DNA from: a virus
Reading direction: 5' to 3' (one strand)
IMG/VR virus record: IMGVR_UViG_3300046804_005798
Span: 1 to 64,000 of that record
Length of the DNA: 64,000 nucleotides
Positions 577-58,643 of the stretch are shown here, piece after piece (within the stretch, counting starts at the first letter, position 1; the number at the start of each line of letters is the position of its first letter). Below the pieces are notes generated by a model. That model saw nothing but the letters and a program-made list of their open reading frames with translations, did not search any database and had not been told where the DNA came from. The translations under genes were made by a program, and so were the position numbers.

Positions 577-786
577 ATGACGGTAACAACTAATGATCGT
601 GGGCAACAGAATATGTGGGCAAAAGAACCTTCGATGTATATGACCAAGGAAGACCTTGAGCGTTATGGTATTGAACCTTACGCTGAGAAAGCGGAGCGTT
701 TAAACGGACGCACCGCGATGATTGGATTTGTATCAGCAATTCTTTCATATGCTCTTACTGGAAAACTTTTCTTTGGTATTATTTGA
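577..786 (+). CDS. hli: High-light-inducible protein (Hli/HLIP)
   Basis: 69 residues with one chlorophyll a/b-binding-like helix. The diagnostic motif AEKAERLNGRTAMIGF begins near residue 37, and the Glu and Asn-Gly-Arg that ligate chlorophyll are present, followed by a hydrophobic stretch to the C-terminus. Cyanobacterial Hli proteins bind chlorophyll and carotenoid at photosystem II under stress. Cyanophage copies are thought to protect photosynthesis during infection, which fits psbA and petF in the same window. The N-terminal extension of about 35 residues is polar and unassigned. Confidence 0.96.
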   Translation: MTVTTNDRGQQNMWAKEPSMYMTKEDLERYGIEPYAEKAERLNGRTAMIGFVSAILSYALTGKLFFGII

Positions 787-799
787 GTTTTAATTTTAC

Positions 800-840
800 A
801 TACCATACATTATAAATAATATAAAATATATGTTTGGTAT
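800..840 (+). promoter_or_regulatory. Late promoter inside an inverted repeat before the HNH gene
   Basis: ATACCA-t-ACAT (800-810) pairs with ATGT-t-TGGTAT (830-840) with one T-T mismatch. The 3' arm abuts the ATG at 841. A T4-type late promoter TATAAATA (811-818) lies in the loop, so a late transcript starting near 824 would lack the 5' arm. The pairing is visible; the regulatory role is inferred from T4 homing-endonuclease genes with this design. Confidence 0.6.
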
Positions 841-1341
841 ATGAAATCTCTTTACAGCATCGGTGATAAAATACACCGACTTACTATCAAAGGAAAAACA
901 GTTTGCACTACCCCAAGTGGAAGAAATCGTTCTCATTATATTTGTGAATGTGAATGTGGAAATGAAGTAAAGGTTGAGGGATATAACCTCAATAATGGTC
1001 GTTATAAATCCTGTGGATGTAAAAGAGCATCTGCTGGTGGAATATCTAACACAAAAAAGTATAGAATGTGGAAATCTGCACAAGAGCGTGCTATTAAAAA
1101 AGGATTAGAATTTTCTATACGAGTTGAAGATATTGAAATACCAAAAAATTGCCCTTTGTTGAACATAACACTCATTGAAGGTGATAGAGAATACACTCCT
1201 TCACTTGATAGAATTGATAGTAAAAAAGGATATACTCCAGACAATGTGTGGGTTATATCTCATAGAGCAAATCAAATAAAAAATGATGCTACACTTGAAG
1301 AATTAAAACTCATAACAGAAAACCTATCAAAAATAACTTGA
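841..1341 (+). CDS. HNH-type homing endonuclease with N-terminal zinc ribbon
   Basis: 166 residues. A zinc-ribbon-like part (CECECGNE near residue 40, then SCGC near 58) is followed by a C-terminal nuclease core with CPLLNI and SLDRIDSKKGYTPDNVWVIS, typical of phage HNH/endonuclease VII-like enzymes. It sits alone between hli and petF, with its own late-promoter leader, as a freestanding mobile gene would. The target site is not identifiable. Its last bases overlap the -35 element of a promoter facing petF. Confidence 0.85.
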   Translation: MKSLYSIGDKIHRLTIKGKTVCTTPSGRNRSHYICECECGNEVKVEGYNLNNGRYKSCGCKRASAGGISNTKKYRMWKSAQERAIKKGLEFSIRVEDIEIPKNCPLLNITLIEGDREYTPSLDRIDSKKGYTPDNVWVISHRANQIKNDATLEELKLITENLSKIT

Positions 1342-2584: not shown

Positions 2585-2610
2585 AAAGCGTCCAAAAGGG
2601 CGCTTTTTTT
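2585..2610 (+). terminator. Terminator after the petF-hli-peroxiredoxin operon
   Basis: AAAGCGTCC, loop AAAA, GGGCGCTTT (9 pairs, one G-T) then seven T. Confidence 0.92.
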
Positions 2611-2617
2611 ATAAATA
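2610..2617 (+). promoter_or_regulatory. T4-type late promoter before the lysis-like cassette
   Basis: TATAAATA directly after the terminator T-run, 25 bases upstream of the ATG at 2643. Confidence 0.65.
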
Positions 2618-2642
2618 CATTCAGTGTTTATAGAAGTATTCA

Positions 2643-3314
2643 ATGACCTTAGATCTTCATAACTTTTTTAAGTATTATGATGATGGTAATTCGAATCACG
2701 TAGCAGCGGTTCAGTGGTTAGAGGATAACCTTCCCGCTCAATTCATGGACGATTCGGAGACAGAGTGGGTTTCAATTTTCAGAACAAAGCCACCAGCTCC
2801 AGAAGTTCTTGCAGTTCCATACTTTAACCAAGTAGATAACTACAGAGATGCACATAGAACTTGCAACTCTTCATCATGTGCTATGTGTCTTGCGTTCCTC
2901 AAGCCAGGAAGCATTAAAGGTGATGACGAATACGTTAAGAAAGTATTTGAGATTGGCGATACAACTGACCATGCCGTACAGACGAAGGTTCTGGCAGCTT
3001 ATGGTGTTAAGTCACACTTTAGTTACAATCTATCTTTTGCTGATATCGATAAAAGTCTGGACGCTGGGAAGCCCGTTGTTATTGGCATACTCCATAGGGG
3101 TTCTCTTTCTGCACCTACTGGTGGGCACATGTGTGTTGTAATTGGCAAGACACCAGATGGTAAAGGATATTATGTAAATGATCCATATGGATCATGTAAT
3201 GATAATTATACTGGGCCAGTAACAAATGGTAAGAAGACCATTTATACCAAAGCAATGCTCAAAGCACGTTGGTGCCCAGGAGGCAACGATGGATGGGGAA
3301 GAATTTTCGATTAA
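2643..3314 (+). CDS. C39-like cysteine peptidase with shared N-terminal module
   Basis: 223 residues. Residues 1-45 (LHNFFKxYDDxNxNHVxAVQWLE) also begin the lysozyme at 3413, so they probably form a common targeting domain. Residues 58-205 look like a Peptidase_C39_2 fold: CNSSSCAM with Cys74 in the catalytic position, GGHMCVVIG with His162 and VNDPYG with Asp180. These enzymes cleave peptides, in phages often cell-wall cross-links. The neighbouring lysozyme suggests a two-enzyme lysis pair; the substrate is inferred. The next small gene overlaps its end by 26 bases. Confidence 0.82.
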   Translation: MTLDLHNFFKYYDDGNSNHVAAVQWLEDNLPAQFMDDSETEWVSIFRTKPPAPEVLAVPYFNQVDNYRDAHRTCNSSSCAMCLAFLKPGSIKGDDEYVKKVFEIGDTTDHAVQTKVLAAYGVKSHFSYNLSFADIDKSLDAGKPVVIGILHRGSLSAPTGGHMCVVIGKTPDGKGYYVNDPYGSCNDNYTGPVTNGKKTIYTKAMLKARWCPGGNDGWGRIFD

Positions 3315-6511: not shown

Positions 6512-6588
6512 TGCTTATGTGTGGTAACTTAAGCAAAAGATTGGGGGCAGAAATGCCTCTTTTCTTGTATAAATAATATTACCACACA
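6512..6588 (+). promoter_or_regulatory. Pairing-arm leader with hairpin and late promoter before GIY-YIG gene
   Basis: Hairpin TGCTTA (6512-6517)/TAAGCA (6530-6535) exposes TGTGTGGTAA (6518-6527) in its loop; this is perfectly complementary to TTACCACACA (6579-6588), ten bases before the ATG at 6598. Between them lie a second hairpin GGGGCA-gaaa-TGCCTC (6544-6559, one G-T) and late promoter TATAAATA (6568-6575). Read-through RNA could fold as a pseudoknot that masks the start; late RNA could not. The same plan recurs at 7733 and 58561. Confidence 0.72.
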
Positions 6589-6597
6589 TAAAGCAGT

Positions 6598-7732: not shown

Positions 7733-7807
7733 ACCTGTGTGGTTCGCATCTATCAGGTAGAAGGGGTGCTTCGGCACCTTTTCTTGTATAAATAGTATTG
7801 CGAACCA
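7733..7807 (+). promoter_or_regulatory. Pairing-arm leader with UUCG hairpin and late promoter before HNH gene
   Basis: Hairpin ACCTG (7733-7737)/CAGGT (7754-7758) presents TGGTTCGCA (7740-7748), complementary to TGCGAACCA (7799-7807), eleven bases before the ATG at 7819. Between are GGTGC-ttcg-GCACC (7765-7778), a terminator-like hairpin followed by TTTTCTT, and TATAAATA (7787-7794). Architecture is the same as at 6512 but every paired arm has a different sequence. Confidence 0.72.
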
Positions 7808-7818
7808 TAACAGAGTAG

Positions 7819-24089: not shown

Positions 24090-26290
24090 ATGACTGCTAC
24101 ACTTTCACAACAAAAACAAACAAATTCCTGGGAACAATTCTGTAACTGGGTAACTTCAACCGATAATAGGTTGTATGTGGGATGGTTTGGAGTCCTTATG
24201 ATTCCTTGCCTACTTGCTGCTACAACTTGTTTCATCATCGCATTCATCGGTGCTCCCCCAGTGGACATTGATGGCATTCGTGAACCAGTTGCTGGATCTC
24301 TAATGTATGGAAATAACATCATCTCTGGTGCTGTTGTTCCAAGTTCTAACGCCATCGGCCTGCATTCGTAAAGGAGTGCCTTATACCAGAAATGGTATAA
24401 GCAAATCGGGTGAATTGCTGGAAACCTAACCCAGTGAAAGGATAAAAGTGTATAAATAGTAATATGGAAACCACTTCTATCCTAATGACTATCTACGAAC
24501 AGTTTATTGAGTATTGTAAAATTGAAAACTTTGATAGTCAGTACTATGAAAAACACCATATTGTTCCAAGACATTCTGGTGGTACTGATGATAAAGAAAA
24601 TCTAATTTACTTACCTCCACATATTCACACACTCGCACATTATTACCGTTGGTTGTCATTTCAAGAAATAGGTGACAAAGTTGCTTACGAAATGAGATGG
24701 AACCAAAATATGGAAGGTGTGAAACTTCGTTCTCAACTTGCTGTTGAAACTAATAAACAAAAGGGTAATACTTTTTGGAATAGTGAATGGCAAAGAGAGC
24801 AGGGACTAAAAGGTGGAACAAAAGGAGGTTCTGCTAATACTCAAAACCAGTTTATTGCTAGACAAAAAGTTGGTAAAACTTATGGAAAGCAAGTTGGTCT
24901 TTCAAGGCAAAAAAGTGATTTGGTAGAAATACTGAAACACTCCACATCTTGGAAACACAAAACTGGAAAAACTGTTACTCTTTTTCCACAAGAAAGTGTG
25001 ACTAAACTTTGTGAAGAACTCCAAAGTATTGAATACTTTGATATTCCAAACAAAGCACTTATAGGAAAACTTCTTCGTGGTGAAAAAAAACAACTTTATG
25101 GGTGGTCTTTTACTGGTATGGCAATCAGCAGCCAAGACACAGACGATACTTCTGTGTAAGGTTCATCGACTAGTCGGTTTCTCAAGCGTGAGATGTAATA
25201 CGACATTAGCGCCCGACACCCTCAATTTAGGGTGATGATATAGTCAGCACCATAAGGAAACTTATGGATTATGCGTTCTACCCCATCTGGGAAGCTGCTT
25301 CCCTAGATGAGTGGCTTTACAACGGTGGTCCTTTCCAACTCGTTGTCTTCCACTTCCTCATCGGCATCTACTGCTATATGGGTCGTGAATGGGAACTTTC
25401 TTACCGTCTAGGTATGCGTCCTTGGATTATGGTTGCTTACAGCGCACCTGTTGCTGCTGCATCTGCGGTATTCCTGGTCTATCCTTTCGGTCAAGGTTCT
25501 TTCTCTGATGCAATGCCTCTGGGTATCTCTGGTACGTTCAACTATATGCTTGTCTTCCAAGCAGAACACAACATTCTGATGCACCCCTTCCATATGCTTG
25601 GAGTTGCTGGTGTCTTCGGTGGTTCTCTGTTCAGTGCTATGCACGGTTCTCTGGTTACTTCCTCGCTGGTTCGTGAGACCACCGAGAATGAGTCCCAGAA
25701 CTATGGTTACAAGTTTGGTCAAGAAGAAGAGACCTACAACATCGTTGCTGCACACGGTTACTTTGGACGCCTTATTTTCCAATATGCTTCCTTCAATAAC
25801 TCCCGTTCGCTGCACTTCTTCCTTGCTGCTTGGCCTGTAGTTGGAATCTGGTTTGCTGCTCTTGGTGTAAGCACCATGGCATTCAACCTTAATGGTTTTA
25901 ACTTTAATCAATCACTTCTATCATCTGATGGTCGTGTGATTAATACCTGGGCTGACATTCTTAACCGAGCAAATCTTGGTTTTGAAGTAATGCACGAGCG
26001 TAGATTTGGGTATTGCGCTCTTTAAATCGGATGAATTGCTGGAAACCCCAAGTGGGCAATCAGCAGCCAAGTCCTAGATACATCTAGGAAAGGTTCAGAG
26101 ACTACCTGAGGAATAAAGTTTCCTTAATAACAGGCACGAGCGTCCGACACCAGAAATGGTGATGATATAGTCCAATCCTGGTAGTAATACCAGACAACCA
26201 AAGGAATAAAAGAATGCCCATAATTTTCCTTTGGACCTTGCATCTGTTGAAGCAACTCCTGTTGCCTTGACTGCACCGACCATCGGGTGA
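24090..26290 (+). CDS. psbA: Photosystem II D1 protein, split by two group I introns
   Basis: Exons 24090-24365, 25276-26001 and 26213-26290 join in frame to 359 residues, the normal D1 length. Junctions restore NAIGLH|FYPIW and [16 protein letters not shown], both invariant D1 segments. The product is the reaction-centre D1 protein that binds chlorophyll, pheophytin, QB and the Mn cluster; it ends ALTAPTIG with the usual processed tail. Phage psbA replaces photodamaged host D1 during infection. Reading without splicing gives stops just after each exon, which is not degeneration. Early and late promoters and a structured leader lie upstream. Confidence 0.97.
24451..24458 (+). promoter_or_regulatory. 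Late promoter inside psbA intron 1
   Basis: TATAAATA within the intron allows HNH expression independent of psbA transcription, as known for T4 intron ORFs. Confidence 0.7.
24485..25159 (+). CDS. Intron-encoded HNH homing endonuclease
   Basis: 224 residues from ATG 24485. An upstream in-frame ATG at 24464 would be at the predicted start of RNA from late promoter TATAAATA (24451-24458), so 24485 ([12 protein letters not shown]) is preferred. [25 protein letters not shown] is the HNH core. The middle is Gly/Lys/Gln-rich, and [17 protein letters not shown]...[12 protein letters not shown] resembles a DNA-binding repeat. The last 13 residues ([13 protein letters not shown]) are encoded by conserved ribozyme core sequence. 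It probably cleaves intronless psbA. Confidence 0.9.
   Translation: MTIYEQFIEYCKIENFDSQYYEKHHIVPRHSGGTDDKENLIYLPPHIHTLAHYYRWLSFQEIGDKVAYEMRWNQNMEGVKLRSQLAVETNKQKGNTFWNSEWQREQGLKGGTKGGSANTQNQFIARQKVGKTYGKQVGLSRQKSDLVEILKHSTSWKHKTGKTVTLFPQESVTKLCEELQSIEYFDIPNKALIGKLLRGEKKQLYGWSFTGMAISSQDTDDTSV
26002..26212 (+). ncRNA. Group I intron 2 of psbA (211 bases, no ORF)
   Basis: Exon end GAGCGT (25996-26001) pairs with guide GCGCTC (26015-26020) over six bases with a U-G at the splice site; the intron ends in G (26212). GAATTGCTGGAAACC, GGCAATCAGCAGCCAAG and P7 GACTA (26100-26104)/TAGTC (26168-26172) are clear. Position and size resemble the small psbA intron reported from Synechococcus phage S-PM2. 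Confidence 0.95.
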
Positions 26291-26298
26291 TATAATAA

Positions 26299-26333
26299 AG
26301 GGGAACTCTTCGGAGTTCCTTTTTTTATAAATA
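26299..26333 (+). terminator. psbA terminator fused to a late promoter
   Basis: GGAACTC-ttcg-GAGTTCC (26302-26319) with flanking A/T pairs and seven T; TATAAATA (26326-26333) begins in the T-run and serves the next gene. Confidence 0.9.
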
Positions 26334-26356
26334 TTTATGCACGAAAGAAAACACGA

Positions 26357-26785
26357 ATGACTAAACTTTACTCTGAACTTTATAGGACTTGTATGACTTG
26401 TAGTAAGGAAAAACTTGCTACTGAGTTCTATGTTCGCAATAAAAAAACTGGAGTTCGACATTCATCTTGTAAAGAATGTGATAAAGCAAGAGTAAAAGCA
26501 CGGCATCAAGCAAATCCAGAACGCACGAGAAATAATGACTTGAAGAGAAACTATGGTATAACCCTCCAAGAACATCAACAAATGTTTGAAGAGCAAAATG
26601 GAGTTTGTGCTACTTGTAAAAGTCCTGGTGATGGAAAATGGAAAAAACTTTGTGTAGACCACGACCATAAGACAGGAAAGGTTAGACAACTTCTTTGTAG
26701 GAGATGTAATATGATATTAGGACAAGCATATGATAATATAAGTCTCTTTGAGGAATATATTAAATACCTACAAAAGCACCAATAA
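26357..26785 (+). CDS. Endonuclease VII-like freestanding homing endonuclease
   Basis: 142 residues. CMTCSKEK...CKECD and CATCKSPG...CRRCN give two zinc Cys pairs each side; LCVDHDHKTGKVRQLLCRRCN is the endonuclease VII/HNH core with catalytic Asp-His. Position directly after psbA, whose intron 2 has no ORF, matches the freestanding enzyme F-CphI downstream of intron-bearing psbA in S-PM2. It likely cuts psbA at or near the intron 2 site. Homology to F-CphI is inferred from context and fold, not checked. Confidence 0.88.
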   Translation: MTKLYSELYRTCMTCSKEKLATEFYVRNKKTGVRHSSCKECDKARVKARHQANPERTRNNDLKRNYGITLQEHQQMFEEQNGVCATCKSPGDGKWKKLCVDHDHKTGKVRQLLCRRCNMILGQAYDNISLFEEYIKYLQKHQ

Positions 26786-57715: not shown

Positions 57716-57997
57716 GCGAGTATGGTGGAATCGGTAGACACACCAGACTTATGAAAATTGAGCCTCATTTGGGAAACCTTGTGAGTGTAACTCCTCAAAT
57801 TCGGTGAAACCTGTAAAATGGCAATACCGAGCCAAGCATCGTAAGATGAAGGTGTAGAGACTAGACGGGGAGCACCTAAACCAAAAGGTATGGTGAAGGT
57901 ATAGTCCAGACCACAAACCGAAAGGGTAGTGAAAACTATAGTGGTACGAAAATCTGTTGAGCGTATGCTCGTGGGAGTTCAAGTCTCCCTACTCGCA
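57716..57997 (+). tRNA. trnL: tRNA-Leu (UAA), interrupted by a group I intron
   Basis: Exons 57716-57750 and 57949-57997 join to an 84-base tRNA-Leu: acceptor GCGAGTA/TACTCGC, anticodon stem CAGA/TCTG with loop CTTAAAA (UAA), and variable arm and T-arm GGGAG-ttcaagt-CTCCC. The discriminator base is A. No CCA is encoded. The intron sits between anticodon bases 34 and 35, exactly as in cyanobacterial tRNA-Leu(UAA). UUA is frequent in this AT-rich phage. Confidence 0.94.
57751..57948 (+). ncRNA. Group I intron in tRNA-Leu(UAA)
   Basis: 198 bases, ending in G. Core: AATTGAGCC, GGTGAAACC, GGCAATACCGAGCCAAGC, GAAGGTGTAGAGACTAGACGGGG and GGTATAGTCC; P7 is GACTA (57859-57863)/TAGTC (57902-57906). 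It follows the chloroplast/cyanobacterial trnL intron closely and has no ORF. Confidence 0.93.
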
Positions 57998-58560: not shown

Positions 58561-58629
58561 CCTGTGACCGGCAAATTTACAGGAGGAGGGTGAAAATCCC
58601 TCCATTTTTATATAAATAATAATGCCGGT
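58561..58629 (+). promoter_or_regulatory. Pairing-arm leader with hairpin and late promoter before HNH gene
   Basis: CCTGT (58561-58565)/ACAGG (58579-58583) hairpin exposes ACCGGCA (58567-58573), complementary to TGCCGGT (58623-58629); the pairing can extend to ten bases with one G-T. Between are GGAGGG/CCCTCC (58585-58603) and TATAAATA (58611-58618). ATG 58644 follows. Confidence 0.72.
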
Positions 58630-58643
58630 TACAGAGTAGAACT

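Follow-up and report, generated by a model that had tools for sequence, protein, structure and literature searches.

What is the role of an inverted repeat that encloses a late promoter and runs up to the start codon of a predicted nuclease gene? The locus that raises this question lies in a window of 64,000 bases, the whole stretch of DNA analysed here, which forms the first part of a 72,883-base virus record. Because its genes include hli, petF, psbA with a group I intron, and head proteins, we assign the window to a T4-like cyanophage. We propose, with a probability of about 0.82, that positions 800-843 are a translational gate belonging to a mobile HNH homing endonuclease cassette.

The inverted repeat and the inserted cassette

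The features on which this proposal is built are the following.

577-786, + strand: hli gene just upstream of the leader, the likely source of read-through RNA
788-1335, + strand: inserted cassette of 548 bp, leader plus HNH ORF, from the empty-site comparison
800-810, + strand: 5' arm of the stem, ATACCATACAT (ATACCAtACAT), extendable to 793-810
811-818, + strand: T4-type late promoter TATAAATA, located in the loop and unchanged throughout the family alignment
824, + strand: expected late transcription start, inside the loop, placed by T4 spacing
830-840, + strand: 3' arm of the stem, ATGTTTGGTAT (ATGTtTGGTAT), extendable to 830-847, across the start codon
841-1341, + strand: predicted HNH / endonuclease VII-like homing endonuclease ORF, 166 aa (PHROG 3322 endonuclease, E 2.5e-30; PHROG 374 HNH, E 1.8e-16)

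Re-reading of the sequence bore out exactly what a preliminary description had reported, a ten-pair inverted repeat around TATAAATA whose 3' arm touches the ATG. The arms form ten Watson-Crick pairs with one T-T mismatch (806/834), and the 3' arm directly adjoins the ORF's ATG at 841-843; a longer repeat (793-810 / 830-847, 15 of 18 positions complementary) would include the start codon itself. TATAAATA, which had been read as a late promoter, is identical to the published T4-type and cyanophage late promoter. Taken by itself, the hairpin is weak and only moderately beyond chance in its 86% A+T spacer. An equally good symmetric, ungapped stem near the late promoter occurs in 0.16% of local Markov sequences (P = 0.0016), and the chance of such a stem over the window's 11 TATAAATA sites is about 2%. 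The folding energy of the whole leader is ordinary (z -1.06; 32/200 shuffles), and the leader does not stand out in a gapped duplex test (66/300). Whole-arm duplex energies and folding z-scores on single leaders are too insensitive for an AT-rich simple leader, for which the ungapped local stem test, an opening-energy test and comparative tests were added. With its T-T mismatch, the window copy has the weakest stem among its close relatives. An Rfam search returned nothing above the gathering score at the window leaders.

The 3' arm of the window copy has no clear Shine-Dalgarno sequence, so exclusion of the ribosome would act on the start codon region. A four-codon frame also begins in this arm (830-844; ATG TTT GGT ATA TGA) and has a counterpart in L007-L012 (ATG TGT GGT ATA TGA); its stop overlaps the HNH start (ATGA), an overlap that could couple translation.

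The HNH start codon named in the preliminary description holds up as well, the ORF being of the HNH / endonuclease VII kind by its PHROG 3322 match. Searches with this ORF gave no match in Pfam and nothing significant in the PDB. Based on the PHROG 3322 and 374 matches, together with the mobile cassette delimited by empty sites, we consider the ORF a predicted homing endonuclease. It sits between hli and a short gene preceding petF, and no + strand terminator was found between hli and the leader. The empty sites of L218 and L232 run from hli through ATTTGAG directly into ACTTGACAATGACTTC, with no insert, and L219/L220 match window positions 577-795 and 1338-1500 as one contiguous stretch; leader and ORF were therefore inserted together, at about 788-1335. 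The last codon and stop of the ORF (ACT TGA) are borrowed from the target site. Relatives occupy other nearby sites, each with its own leader, past petF in L019 and past the short gene in L020/L021. Directly after the insertion point, and overlapping the HNH stop codon, lies a near-consensus sigma-70 promoter (TTGACA-17-TACAAT, 1338-1366, 11/12). Because this promoter is also present in the empty-site relatives, the gene downstream keeps its promoter despite the insertion.

Conservation of the stem and evidence for its pairing in RNA

A scan of IMG/VR yielded 38 loci, many of them with leaders of the 800-843 plan. Across the 11-pair stem in an alignment of 11 leaders of the window's HNH family, pairing is kept in 97.2% of cells. 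Changes on both sides are found in 4 of the 11 pairs and account for 12 doubly changed cells, the pairs passing from A-U to G-C, U-A to A-U, A-U to U-G and A-U to C-G. Neither the covariation score nor the doubly changed count was matched in any of 500 shuffles, and a register slid by 1-3 columns leaves at most 53% paired; the relatives share descent, and the shuffle, Fisher and binomial figures of this analysis overstate their independence.

More distant relatives illustrate the same behaviour. The arms of L019 (TTTTCCTATCAT / ATCATAGGAAAA) and L020 (TCCTATAATACT / AGTATTATAGGA) differ strongly yet pair, and the late promoter has the variant form ACTAAATA in L020/L021. In RB11-B, TGTGATAAaAT pairs with ATatTATCACA, and the 3' arm again touches the ATG. 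The cultured phage S-SKS1 has paired arms, TACCTTCGTT / AACGAAGGTA, before a psbD-linked HNH gene, with GAAGG in the 3' arm; AGG or GAAGG is present in the 3' arm of L013-L024, L019 and S-SKS1. An Rfam search of the relatives gave only chance-level or sub-threshold matches, such as a sub-threshold rli48 match on the opposite strand in L127. Judged from this alignment, the 800-843 stem is under selection as pairing, and the relatives settle what the window copy alone does not.

The departures from perfect pairing bear on whether the selected structure is one of RNA or of DNA. In a protein-binding DNA dyad, single-sided departures to G-T and to A-C are expected to be equally frequent. Among 71 distinct stems from simple and complex leaders, the interior non-Watson-Crick cells comprise 28 G-U versus 4 A-C (p 2e-5, an indicative figure because the sequences are related). 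Since G-U departures far outnumber A-C, their excess points to pairing in the + strand RNA and not to a DNA operator. The arms are separated by 12 nt in L020 and by about 35 nt in RB11-B, the extremes of the window's HNH family, and by much more in complex leaders.

Predicted closure of the start region and alternative explanations

The cost of opening the start region, taken as -12 to +6, was computed for the read-through RNA and for a late RNA modelled from six bases after TATAAATA, where T4 spacing would place its start. For HNH gene 841 this cost is 12.0 kcal/mol in the read-through RNA versus 2.5 in the late RNA; with the upstream 60 bases shuffled, the mean is 5.6 and 12.0 is reached in 1 of 200 cases. 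The same contrast is seen in 11 of 12 relatives (9-25 for read-through versus 0.4-2.8 for late RNA), the exception being L018, in which the two RNAs are alike, and in three complex leaders (9.2-11.2 versus 1.6-2.3). The stem is thus predicted by the folding model to close the start region only in RNA begun upstream. Elsewhere in the window, opening costs do not rise above those of shuffles for a lysis-like gene and for four endonuclease late promoters; no such gate is present at the endonuclease late promoters 9552, 24451, 32001 and 26326. At the late promoter of an endolysin-like gene (2643), window 2610-2645 (TATAAATACattcaGTGTTTATA), the promoter forms part of the 5' arm of a small hairpin that follows a terminator. 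This arrangement recalls T4 gene e, and its opening test is not significant.

Strong enclosing stems, defined by a score of 11.5 or more, were counted at all TATAAATA sites shortly before an ORF in the fetched loci. They are found at 82 of 113 endonuclease late promoters versus 0 of 31 for other genes (Fisher p 1.5e-14, a guide only, the sequences being related). Four sites had been moved from the other genes to the endonucleases by N-terminal sequence: two resemble GIY-YIG and one NUMOD4/HNH proteins, and the assignment of the fourth, L203, is only probable. Counting L203 among the other genes gives 81/112 versus 1/32.

We propose that RNA from the upstream early (hli) unit would read into the cassette carrying both arms, and that this RNA would fold such that the hairpin pairs bases up to and including the start codon, preventing translation. 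Late in infection, the phage late sigma factor would use the loop's TATAAATA. The late RNA is expected to begin about six bases downstream of this motif, with the 5' arm missing, and its open 5' end, a 5' UTR of about 17 nt, would allow translation. We favour this T4 I-TevI/I-TevIII/mobE design, on which the early read-through RNA would be untranslatable and the late RNA translated.

In the T4 genes I-TevI, I-TevII, I-TevIII and segB and in Aeh1 mobE, early RNA has its ribosome site shut by a hairpin, whose 5' strand is missing from the RNA made at a late promoter (PMC2988022, PMC3014915). The start region of T4 gene e (lysozyme) is likewise closed by folding in the long early RNA, and transcripts from the late promoters do not contain the 5' strand (PMC3014915). 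Our computation for the T4 I-TevIII leader gives AGTATAAT-ATAAATATG-ATTATACT and then AAGAGG, the same order of arm, TATAAATA and arm as at 800-843; the T4 mobE leader has no late promoter, in agreement with the review. The cyanophage leader resembles those of I-TevIII and I-TevI in having the late promoter between or within the hairpin arms and a start predicted to be closed only in upstream-initiated RNA. Whereas these T4 genes are housed in group I introns, with a clear Shine-Dalgarno sequence (AGAGG) and, for I-TevI, a shown operator, the cyanophage gene is free-standing between hli and the short gene before petF and has no clear Shine-Dalgarno sequence. Aeh1 mobE and T4 segB are likewise free-standing, with a late promoter and a hairpin that covers the start region (PMC2988022, PMC3014915), but differ from it in phage group, host, insertion site and protein family. 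The likeness to T4 gene e extends to an early RNA closed over the start and a late RNA lacking the 5' strand; however, gene e is the phage's own lysis gene, and here the gate would be within a mobile endonuclease cassette.

With a candidate homing endonuclease downstream, a promoter between the arms and a conserved stem predicted to close the start, 800-843 is probably a T4-type hairpin-gated late leader. A literature search, with subscription journals largely outside its scope, found no description of such a leader for cyanophage endonucleases. A mechanism known from T4 and Aeromonas phages would now extend to uncultured and cultured cyanobacterial viruses, and the covariation argues for a gate that selection maintains and that is carried along with the gene. 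Such a gate also suggests how a selfish nuclease gene can sit in an early photosynthesis-gene operon (hli-petF) without being expressed early. The proposal is testable in the cultured phages S-SKS1 (simple leader) and S-SRM01 (complex leader).

It is also conceivable that the inverted repeat is a DNA operator, with the endonuclease binding the dyad at its own late promoter and repressing it. I-TevI represses its own late promoter in this way via an overlapping operator (PMC2988022), a dyad enclosing a promoter is typical of operators, and dimer binding would likewise make the two half-sites co-change. We nevertheless regard an operator as unlikely, since the strand-specific excess of G-U over A-C is unexpected for a DNA dyad, the arm spacing is too variable, from the 12 nt of L020 to the far longer distances of complex leaders, and the arms are wholly different between related endonucleases. 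A comparison by eye of the insertion junction (ATTTGAG followed by ACTTGACAATG) with 793-847 revealed no obvious copy.

Slightly less probable still is that the hairpin mainly affects RNA stability or transcription, through protection of the 5' end or attenuation of read-through, instead of ribosome access. Structured 5' regions do influence mRNA stability, and the terminator-like hairpin in most complex leaders makes control of read-through part of the wider design. The simple leader, however, has no terminator, its arms extend to the start codon, and the hairpin cannot protect the late RNA, which does not contain the 5' arm. A chance palindrome in an AT-rich spacer beside an ordinary late promoter would agree with the ordinary folding energy and duplex rank of the window copy alone, but we consider it very improbable: the local stem P of 0.0016 speaks against it, the compensatory changes in relatives largely refute it, and the strong stem is absent at non-endonuclease late promoters.

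Complex leaders and neighbouring observations

Beyond the simple gate proposed for 800-843, three leaders of the window have a more elaborate plan and, unlike 800-843, fold with energies well outside those of their shuffles.

6513-6591, + strand: complex leader of GIY-YIG gene 6598; arms 6515-6527 / 6579-6591; TATAAATA at 6568-6575; z -5.54
7733-7816, + strand: complex leader of HNH gene 7819; arms 7738-7748 / 7799-7809; TATAAATA at 7787-7794; z -5.35
58561-58637, + strand: complex leader of HNH gene 58644; arms 58562-58573 / 58623-58634; TATAAATA at 58611-58618; z -4.18

The earlier suggestion that 800-843 is a simpler version of the leaders at 6512, 7733 and 58561 is correct for the outer pairing, but those leaders add a terminator-like hairpin and a local hairpin that would compete for the 5' arm. 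Their elements follow one order (window 6513-6597, 7733-7818 and 58561-58643; L047-L212): local hairpin, terminator-like hairpin, TATAAATA, 3' arm, ATG. Across 32 distinct complex leaders from IMG/VR, the arms are hypervariable yet complementary, own arms scoring 14.7 versus 6.6 for swapped arms, and 28 of them have a terminator-like hairpin and T-rich tail ahead of the late promoter. For the start of the 5' arm, pairing to a local strand (GCTTA/TAAGC is one case) exceeds that of all 20,000 permutations. Because the local and distal pairings use an overlapping part of the 5' strand, they are expected to compete. The arrangement looks like gating at two levels, termination and closure of the start site. 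No Rfam family covers the complex leaders, which we put forward as candidates for a new RNA family. With no family match, we dropped the idea that they are ribozymes or riboswitches. The cultured phage S-SRM01 carries two complex leaders; in S-SRM01 (L304), the annotated start (292) of the NUMOD3 protein gene QPX48040.1 falls inside the leader; the gene probably starts at the ATG that follows the 3' arm, around locus position 349.

More speculatively, the simple 800-843 gate could be the basic version of a class of endonuclease leaders in cyanobacterial viruses that is portable and evolves fast. In the complex leaders, a 5' strand held in the loop of the local hairpin and followed by a terminator might then give an early short RNA that displays the complement of the late start and acts in trans as an antisense on the late endonuclease mRNA, besides gating in cis. 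We hold this extended scheme to be doubtful.

A second complex class precedes GIY-YIG genes (L139, L160, L173, L175, L176, L181, L189, L209 and L210) and has no Rfam match. It conserves GGCAGCAAC...TTGGCGGAT...GTTGCGTAAGTCC, with a hairpin loop complementary to the stretch touching the ATG, a pseudoknot-like arrangement. Elsewhere in the window, the region 25264-26785 holds psbA, interrupted by a group I intron (25952-26194), and after it an endonuclease VII-type gene (26357) that is preceded by a terminator and a late promoter, resembling the psbA intron and F-CphI pair of S-PM2. A second group I intron match (57741-57930; Rfam RF00028, 59.6 bits) lies upstream of a tRNA-Thr gene and HNH gene 58644, at a distance of a few hundred bases.
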